A DNA stretch of 41,547 nucleotides. It comes from Myxococcota bacterium. GTDB lineage: Bacteria; Myxococcota_A; UBA796; CAJQPC01. Shown one piece after another: positions 21,251 to 22,323 of this stretch. Location of the stretch: the NCBI GenBank assembly GCA_023150845.1, contig JAKLKD010000026.1:1-41547 (forward strand). Reading direction: 5' to 3'. The position numbers were made by a program, and so were the translations under genes. A model generated the notes under the pieces. That model ran no database searches. It was not told where the DNA came from and saw nothing but the letters and a program-made list of their open reading frames with translations. Numbering within the stretch: position 1 is the stretch's first letter; each line of letters begins with the position of its first letter.

Positions 21251-21437
21251 CAGGGTTTGCCACTCCAGGCGAGCATAAGCAGTTATCGCTCTGTCGTTGC
21301 AGCTTTGTCTACGCTTGCGTGCTCTACCCACCCGCCTTTGTTGTGTGTATCGTGTAAACAGCTGGAGCAGGACAAGAAGCGGCCGCGGACCTCAAGACAC
21401 AAACTTCGACCCCCGGTCAGGTTTTGGTCCATGAGGG

Positions 21438-21460
21438 GTTCAAATGTTCAGTATGTTCAG
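21438..21460 (+). promoter_or_regulatory. Triple GTTC repeat, SOS/LexA-like operator candidate
   Basis: GTTC occurs at 21438-21441, 21446-21449 and 21455-21458. The last two are GTTCAG direct copies 9 bp apart. They overlap a -10-like TATGTT (21452-21457), about 27 nt before the GGAGG of the downstream gene. A GTTCAG half is part of the LexA motif reported for Myxococcus as I remember it; the full motif matches only partly. A repressor site over the -10 would fit an inducible gene. Confidence 0.4.
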
Positions 21461-21486: not shown

Positions 21487-22323
21487 ATGCTCCCGAACGC
21501 GACCGAGCTTCCCCGTCAGCCCCACCCCGAGATCCCCCGCTTCGCCCAGGCGGGGGCTGAGCTCCAGCACCGCTGGGGCGCCCGCGCCTTCCAGGTGATC
21601 GGCGGCGGCCACATCAGCGGTATGGATCTGCGCGTCGGCGACCTCCTGCTCTTGGCCCCGGAGTGGGTGGACGGCGATCTCGTCATGCTGGCGCCCCGTC
21701 GTTTCGGCCGCCCGATGCTGGCCCGGATGAGCCGCAAGGGCCCCGTCACCGAGCCCTCGGGTATCGTCGCCAGCCACGAGCGCTGGTCGGTCACCGGCCG
21801 CGTTGCCCTCTGGGTACGCCCGGAGCCCCAGGGCAGCTCACGCCTGGTGCACCTCCCCGAGCGCCCCCAGGAGGAGCTCCCCCTCGCCGCGGAGCCCGCC
21901 CGCGTCGCCCCGGCGGCGAGCCCGGCCCTGCTCCTCTCCTTCGACGTCGACGCCGCCCCAGGCGTCTCGAAGCTCCTCGCCCGCCGCCTGCCCGGCGTGC
22001 GCGCCTTGGACGCCCGGCGCTTCTTGGTCACCGGCCTGCCCGCGCTGAGCACGGCGCCGATGGCCCTGGCCGAGTCCCTCTCCGCGGAGCTCTGGGGGCG
22101 CTTCCGCCTCTCGGCCCGGGTGCTCGTCGCCCCCAGCGCCGAGCAGGCCGCCCGGGTCATCCAGCGCCTCCCCGCGGGCGCCATCGCCACCTTGGACGGT
22201 GACATCGCCTTGGGTGAGCCCGCCGCCCGGCCCGTCCGCCCTGAGCGTGTCGTCGAGGCGGCCCCTGCCCGCGCCGAGGCGCCGCGCCCGGCGAGCCCCC
22301 AGCTCGGCCTCTGGAGCGCCTAA
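21487..22323 (+). CDS. UmuD/S24-like + reduced Y-family-polymerase-like protein with clamp motif
   Basis: A 278-residue protein; GGAGG 7 nt before ATG. Residues 36-110 follow the LexA/UmuD C-terminal fold: H-I-S-G-M-D-L-R-V-G-D-L-L-L-L, then G-D-L-V-M-L, then V-T-G-R-V. A Ser (44) is at the nucleophile position but no Lys is in the usual place. Residues 148-230 resemble pieces of a Y-family polymerase. L-S-F-D-V-D-A is like the first catalytic strand, A-L-D-A-R-R-F-L-V-T like the S-I-D-E-A motif without its Asp-Glu pair, and L-S-A-R-V-L-V-A-P-S like G-V-A-P-N. About 60 residues normally between the first two pieces are absent. The protein ends P-Q-L-G-L-W-S-A, a beta-clamp-binding pentapeptide (272-276). 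Function inferred: a catalytically dead damage-response adaptor. Confidence 0.65.
   Translation: MLPNATELPRQPHPEIPRFAQAGAELQHRWGARAFQVIGGGHISGMDLRVGDLLLLAPEWVDGDLVMLAPRRFGRPMLARMSRKGPVTEPSGIVASHERWSVTGRVALWVRPEPQGSSRLVHLPERPQEELPLAAEPARVAPAASPALLLSFDVDAAPGVSKLLARRLPGVRALDARRFLVTGLPALSTAPMALAESLSAELWGRFRLSARVLVAPSAEQAARVIQRLPAGAIATLDGDIALGEPAARPVRPERVVEAAPARAEAPRPASPQLGLWSA

Follow-up and report, generated by a model that had tools for sequence, protein, structure and literature searches.

Does a small gene from a Myxococcota bacterium encode a clamp-targeted protein of the DNA damage response, assembled from UmuD-like and Y-family polymerase parts but unable to catalyse either reaction? A sequence-only reading had proposed this for one open reading frame in the window, by which we mean the whole 41,547-nucleotide stretch of DNA analysed (contig JAKLKD010000026.1). 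The genome concerned is 7.1 Mb in size and 95.7% complete. Our data support that interpretation overall; clamp binding and adaptor function are unproven. The reading that we prefer, and hold to be on balance probable, is of an SOS-induced, UmuD-like, clamp-docking protein, with a leftover palm scaffold from a UmuD-like/Y-family ancestor. Coordinates are collected in Table 1.

Table 1. Positions of the gene, its promoter elements and protein parts in the window, and of related single-frame genes elsewhere
Feature	Position	Strand	Remarks
Box GGTCAggtttTGGTC	21415..21429	+	Operator-like; diverged window version of GGACAnnnnnTGTCC; 17 bp before TTCAGTA
GTTCAGTA, LexA half-site (GTTCAG)	21446..21453	+	Runs into -10 region; shared with lexA promoters of the order
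Whole family gene	21487..22323	+	278 aa; open reading frame and translation match earlier description
UmuD/LexA (S24)-like beta domain, residues 34-111 (predicted)	21586..21819	+	AlphaFold2 pLDDT ~97; Foldseek; no catalytic Ser/Lys pair
Disordered linker, residues 112-146	21820..21924	+	pLDDT <50 for residues 117-137
Reduced Y-family palm, residues 147-240	21925..22206	+	pLDDT mostly 76-94; Foldseek; hhalign; fingers deleted; carboxylates not conserved
Clamp-binding-type peptide QLGLW, residues 272-276	22300..22314	+	Position and pattern kept in 42/48 members
ImuB-DnaE2 single frames of f2	L218:1835-7336, L217:6103-11286, L219:1235-5887, L220:1671-6551	all +	

A conserved gene confined to one order

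Translation confirmed that the open reading frame is real, with 278 codons. A second species of the genus carries a 92%-identical gene, and comparison of the two gives an overall dN/dS of 0.15. Hence, the window gene is under purifying selection. By part, the ratio is 0.07 for the UmuD-like domain and 0.35 for the palm. A protein scan of the product against Pfam and NCBIfam returned no match. Searching with the protein itself found matches in 21 of 58 related genomes, and a family profile was built from 19 of these. With this profile, 52 of the order's 63 genomes proved to have the family (25 of the 27 that are well assembled), nearly always as one copy per genome. The same profile found no member in 8 genomes from other orders of the class. 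Across a Myxococcota sample, 50 of 378 genomes were positive and all lie within the order; no searched genome outside it was positive. For a scan of named genomes, the 19-row profile contained no sufficiently conserved block; a three-row version detected four loci, all of them Myxococcota or 'uncultured proteobacterium' MAGs. Identity to the window protein falls to 22-30% for distant members.

Note that the named relatives come from MAGs and that the remaining genomes are drafts in fragments; some family members are consequently truncated at contig ends. Start codons within the family were picked by eye. One genome, G036, is unusual. Its member (L012:367-1773, minus strand) has 469 aa, with an unrelated C-terminal part and no clamp peptide, and a second, degenerate copy lies on contig C68 (L224).

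The first half of the protein has a predicted UmuD/LexA-like fold

Structures were modelled using AlphaFold2, with only the 47-row family alignment as input, and compared with 350,542 PDB chains using Foldseek. The window protein was modelled with a mean pLDDT of 82.8 and a pTM of 0.75. For its first half, the best matches are the C-domains of lambda CI, UmuD' and LexA (TM by target 0.32-0.49, E 0.05-0.5). Among them are structures in which UmuD, LexA or lambda CI sits on a RecA filament (8gmt, 8gms, 8gmu). The LexA/UmuD-type domain previously placed at residues 36-110 is thus recovered, at the level of fold, as residues 34-111 of the model. The window protein itself scores weakly in Foldseek (E 0.05-1), which is no surprise with two short domains, but near the top the matches form two coherent groups, the very two that the sequence-only reading had named. 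When the S24-like part was aligned to the order's own LexA, hhalign gave 12% in the correct register, compared with 0.5% for reversed LexA. The Pfam S24 and LexA profiles matched neither the window protein nor any of the 47 members. The predicted relation to UmuD and LexA is, accordingly, a fold-level result with weak support from sequence.

Reading of the alignments places H42 of the window protein at the S24 serine position, which is H, P, E or R among relatives. No lysine is conserved, in the family alignments, in the hairpin that follows. Similarly, the family has no conserved pattern for the S24 Ser/Lys dyad or for a cleavage site. Within the same domain, R99-W100 and a GRP motif are near-invariant.

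The second half is a Y-family palm without fingers

In the model, residues 147-240 run in the order beta 147-152, alpha 160-167, beta hairpin 171-181, alpha 191-206, beta 210-215, alpha 218-225 and beta 233-236. Foldseek matched this half to human Rev1 (rmsd 2.0, 79 columns, probability 0.97), followed by Pol IV and Dbh. The pieces assigned to a Y-family polymerase, at residues 148-230, therefore pass the test of fold as a single palm. Fingers, thumb and little finger are all absent, and the palm is followed by a 38-residue tail; loss of the fingers had been inferred correctly.

The same relationship emerges from within the family, some members of which are longer. Taken alone, residues 139-248 of the f1 members align with the palms of the long forms (hhalign E 2.4e-7, probability 93%), an alignment that takes in a 79-residue piece of the window protein. 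Hence, the second half of the window protein is a genuine remnant of a palm from which the fingers are missing. The long forms are themselves readily placed. A long member was modelled with a pLDDT of 89.2 and a pTM of 0.85, and Foldseek matched this model to Pol IV, kappa and iota with E-values down to 1.9e-10. The long-form profile, searched against PDB sequences, found the Pol IV palm and fingers (E 1e-6). Pfam IMS (PF00817) was detected in 13 of 47 members, with a best E-value of 4.6e-10. The whole-family profile had no meaningful match among PDB sequences because the members are too uneven; only the long forms, taken alone, matched.

The hairpin residues D175-A176-R177 stand at the position of the catalytic pair. 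The profile alignment sets A176-R177 against G-G of the long form L028 and against D-E of mycobacterial Pol IV, which fits the suggested replacement of Asp-Glu by Ala-Arg. In the first strand, the window protein still has a D-x-D (153/155). This is not a conserved feature, since the closest relative reads E-T-D there and the one after it R-F-W. Given that neither the Ser/Lys pair nor the polymerase carboxylates are conserved, both S24 and polymerase activities would be expected to have been lost, an expectation that rests on sequence.

The UmuD-like domain and a clamp-type peptide form a constant core

Family members fall into three size classes. Long forms (f2) have ~360-410 aa and comprise palm, fingers and a further domain. 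The middle class, to which the window form belongs, has 220-340 aa. Short forms (f4), of 112-190 aa, consist almost entirely of the UmuD-like domain and the terminal peptide, and the polymerase part is absent. What stays constant is therefore the UmuD-like domain together with the clamp-type peptide, and the palm cannot be essential to the core function. In f5 and f6, sequence comparison could not establish the middle part as a palm remnant (hhalign probability 1.5% and 9.6%).

In the window protein, only Ser-Ala remain after QLGLW. The peptide sits on a low-confidence, flexible tail of the model and meets the QL(S/D)LF-type criterion for such motifs. We scored 48 members for Q[LVI]x[LI] within the last 20 residues, having excluded a few that are known to be incomplete. 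The pattern occurs in all but 6, whereas 2000 shuffles averaged 1.2 and never exceeded 6. Examples are QLALF, QLSLF, QLPLF, QLDLF, QLGLF and QVALW. The peptide is among the most conserved features of the family, even in relatives that are ~25% identical, and is conserved in all size classes. The prediction that homologues would keep this end was thus fulfilled. Note that our shuffle tests count related sequences as independent; this is a minor concern for the peptide, and for the promoter box described below, given their spread over several families. Mycobacterial ImuB docks on the clamp via QLPLWG, and altering QLPLWG abolishes mutasome function (PMC10421592). We infer that the family peptide also binds the clamp; there are no binding data.

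A short protein of this kind might simply occupy the clamp. An SOS-induced competitor could fill the clamp cleft and so slow replication or evict polymerases, much as in the UmuD2C checkpoint of E. coli or with p21 on PCNA, and the UmuD-like domain would give bulk or specificity. At 112-152 aa, the minimal f4 form is laid out as such a competitor would be, and the family peptide is no less canonical than polymerase peptides of this type. Conversely, the UmuD-like domain is conserved beyond the need of a mere plug, as the near-invariant residues noted above illustrate, and the promoter shared with imuA, imuB and recA (see below) fits an accessory role equally well. We regard a clamp brake as possible and would not rank it as likely.

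The promoter is shared with recA, imuA and imuB

Evidence for a role in the damage response, as had been proposed, comes mainly from the promoter, which had gone unnoticed in the sequence-only reading. A perfect GGACAnnnnnTGTCC occurs in 21 of 51 family promoters, compared with 0.03 expected from dinucleotide shuffles, and an exact TTCAGTA in 29 of 51, compared with 0.18. The window box has three mismatches to GGACAnnnnnTGTCC, yet its spacing equals that of other members. It is identical in L010, and GGACAATTTTTGGTC occupies the same place in L011. The distance from GGACAnnnnnTGTCC to TTCAGTA is 17 bp in f1 and most of f2, and 36-37 bp in most of f4, a shift of about two helical turns. The order's lexA promoters read TTGACA-N11-GTTCAG-TATACT, where GTTCAG is the right half of GAACnnnnGTTC. 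Hence, TTCAGTA corresponds to a LexA half-site entering the -10 region. A perfect LexA palindrome was not found in the 51 family promoters; the best, in 4 of them, has 2 mismatches of 12. With up to 3 mismatches allowed, 26 of 51 have one, compared with ~2.7 expected. The full palindrome is degenerate in these promoters and only the half-site is well kept.

Elsewhere in the window genome, imuA and imuB have perfect CTGAACnnnnGTTCAG boxes. One recA-like promoter has the similar GGTCAATTTTTGGCA, with 13 bp spacing as read by eye. Across 21 genomes, a genome-wide pattern search for the box with TTCAG after it returned 23 matches, compared with 1 for the reversed control. Of these, 17 precede a family gene (7), recA or cinA-recA (5), imuA (3) or imuB (2); the remaining 6 look like chance. 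Since the box is common to recA, imuA, imuB and the family gene, the gene looks to be part of the recA/mutasome regulon. This tie rests on promoters and makes no use of the family protein sequence. With elements common to lexA, recA, imuA and imuB, the promoter meets the test of belonging to an SOS regulon.

We also observed that GGACAnnnnnTGTCC is palindromic, and that it occurs together with a LexA site at promoters of recA, imuA, imuB and the family gene, for example at L141:1501, L134:1501, L143:1501 and L146:1501. Regulators of the WYL or XRE type are candidates that could bind GGACAnnnnnTGTCC; the binding protein is unidentified.

Sharing a box with recA also invites a different role. 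The uncleavable UmuD/LexA-like domain could bind the RecA filament groove and compete with LexA, so modulating the SOS response, with clamp docking only secondary. The Foldseek matches to filament-bound UmuD, LexA and lambda CI are in line with this. We find it improbable: the clamp-type peptide is kept in all size classes, and there is no conserved cleavage-site or Ser/Lys pattern.

The protein probably adds to an existing mutasome

The window genome encodes, elsewhere, an ImuA-like gene, ImuB (before DnaE2) and DnaE2, and its ImuB has its own ImuB-C-like end. Hence, the family protein adds to a known mutasome and does not replace it; a stand-in for missing ImuB or DnaE2 was considered and rejected for the same reason. 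In the examined set, every genome has a DnaE2-profile match (above the cut-off in 16 of 21) and ImuA-like matches. The sole S24 match in the window genome (G000) is LexA, so there is no recognisable UmuD. No clear DinB was found in this genome or in the sister species (G001); related genomes have one. In both species, a diverged ImuB is the only IMS (PF00817) match.

The family gene is standalone in the window and, as a rule, shares no operon with imuA-imuB-dnaE2. Only in two f4 genomes, G006 and G015, does dnaE2 lie close by, at 2.4-4 kb. Downstream in the window, a BtpA/SgcQ family gene (PF03437; 22360-23166, plus strand) begins 36 nt after the family gene. A BtpA-like gene also adjoins the family gene in G006 (L040:8937-9983), where the two are convergent. 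In f2, ImuB and DnaE2 occupy one open frame of 1551-1834 aa, an apparent natural ImuB-DnaE2 fusion; the phrase 'ImuB-DnaE2 fusion' was not found in the literature searched.

Upstream, in 19 loci of f2, f3 and f4 (L041:9368-10540, L046:8685-9608 and 17 more), a gene for a PF12705-type PD-(D/E)XK nuclease with a C-terminal CxxCxFRxxC ends 55-170 nt before the family gene. The family protein could, on this basis, bring the repair nuclease to the clamp. Such a tether is quite improbable, since the nuclease is not adjacent in the window, f1, f5 or f6, and where the two are neighbours the family gene is served by a promoter of its own in the intervening stretch. That the gene is a functionless, decaying relic of a umuDC- or imuB-like ancestor is barely credible: the polymerase part is reduced unevenly among families, as decay might leave it, but dN/dS is 0.15, 25/27 well-assembled genomes have the gene, and both promoter and C-terminal peptide are conserved.

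Comparison with known systems

The protein resembles ImuB in having an inactivated Y-family core, a clamp-type peptide (QLPLWG in M. tuberculosis ImuB) and a regulon in common with imuA and imuB. It differs in its UmuD-like N-terminal domain and lacks little finger, thumb and ImuB-C. Even the most reduced ImuB proteins keep all three (PMC12926913). We also considered whether the N-terminal domain is an ImuB-C. This was rejected because it has no Pfam match, its best structures are UmuD, LexA and CI, and the genome's ImuB has its own such end. The earlier description, of a far smaller and UmuD-fused version of ImuB, fits the window form. That form is one of several, and short forms lack the polymerase part.

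Likeness to the UmuD/LexA C-terminal (S24) proteins lies in the predicted fold and the SOS-type promoter, and a small-subunit role beside a Y-family partner is plausible. Unlike them, the family has no catalytic Ser/Lys or cleavage site, is below Pfam S24 detection, and is joined in one chain to the remnant of a palm and a clamp peptide. With UmuC and Pol V the protein shares the combination of Y-family ancestry, a UmuD-type partner and a clamp peptide. However, it is one chain rather than two, has no polymerase active site and, in the window form, lacks fingers and little finger. ImuB-C, YolD/YqjX and SRAP-like small subunits are likewise small, beta-rich accessories in damage regulons; the family domain differs from these by fold comparison. 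We know of no description of them with a clamp peptide and a palm remnant on one chain.

A 2026 census of bacterial DNA polymerases distinguishes 11 module types, none of which, in the part available, has this plan (PMC12926913). Nor is a UmuD-fused, clamp-tailed palm remnant described there or in a 2019 Y-family survey (PMC6511836), again as far as the available portions extend. Within these bounds, the claim that the plan is undescribed holds. We have filed the S24-like, palm-remnant and clamp-peptide plan as a new family by architecture and, in function, as a clamp-targeted, non-catalytic mutasome accessory, with clamp binding inferred.

Discussion

Both folds, the Y-family relation, the catalytic loss, conservation of the peptide, purifying selection and the common promoter have been established computationally. 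What the protein does is less certain. Probably, it helps or restrains error-prone DNA synthesis, for which there are no bench data. Our proposal is that the ancestor would have been a UmuD-like/Y-family fusion. The polymerase part may then have been trimmed to different degrees among families, and lost in one, with the window palm as a leftover scaffold. On the simplest reading, DNA damage would lead the cell to place on the sliding clamp a UmuD-like surface that cannot be cleaved. The likeliest partner of this surface is RecA or a component of the mutasome, an inference made without a predicted complex. As to the net effect on mutagenic synthesis, we lean slightly towards a helper over a brake; this too is inferred, and sequence cannot decide.

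To our knowledge, the ImuA-ImuB-DnaE2 mutasome, where studied, has three parts and no described manager of the UmuD type. A conserved, co-regulated, clamp-docking UmuD-like protein would show UmuD-style control joined to the DnaE2 system. The common box, in turn, suggests that Myxococcota have a second regulator of the DNA-damage response, as yet unidentified. The family forms a natural series, from a UmuD-like domain with a polymerase core down to a UmuD-like domain with a clamp peptide, which reveals the parts that matter. The idea that a UmuD domain may act uncleaved once tethered to the clamp becomes testable as well.
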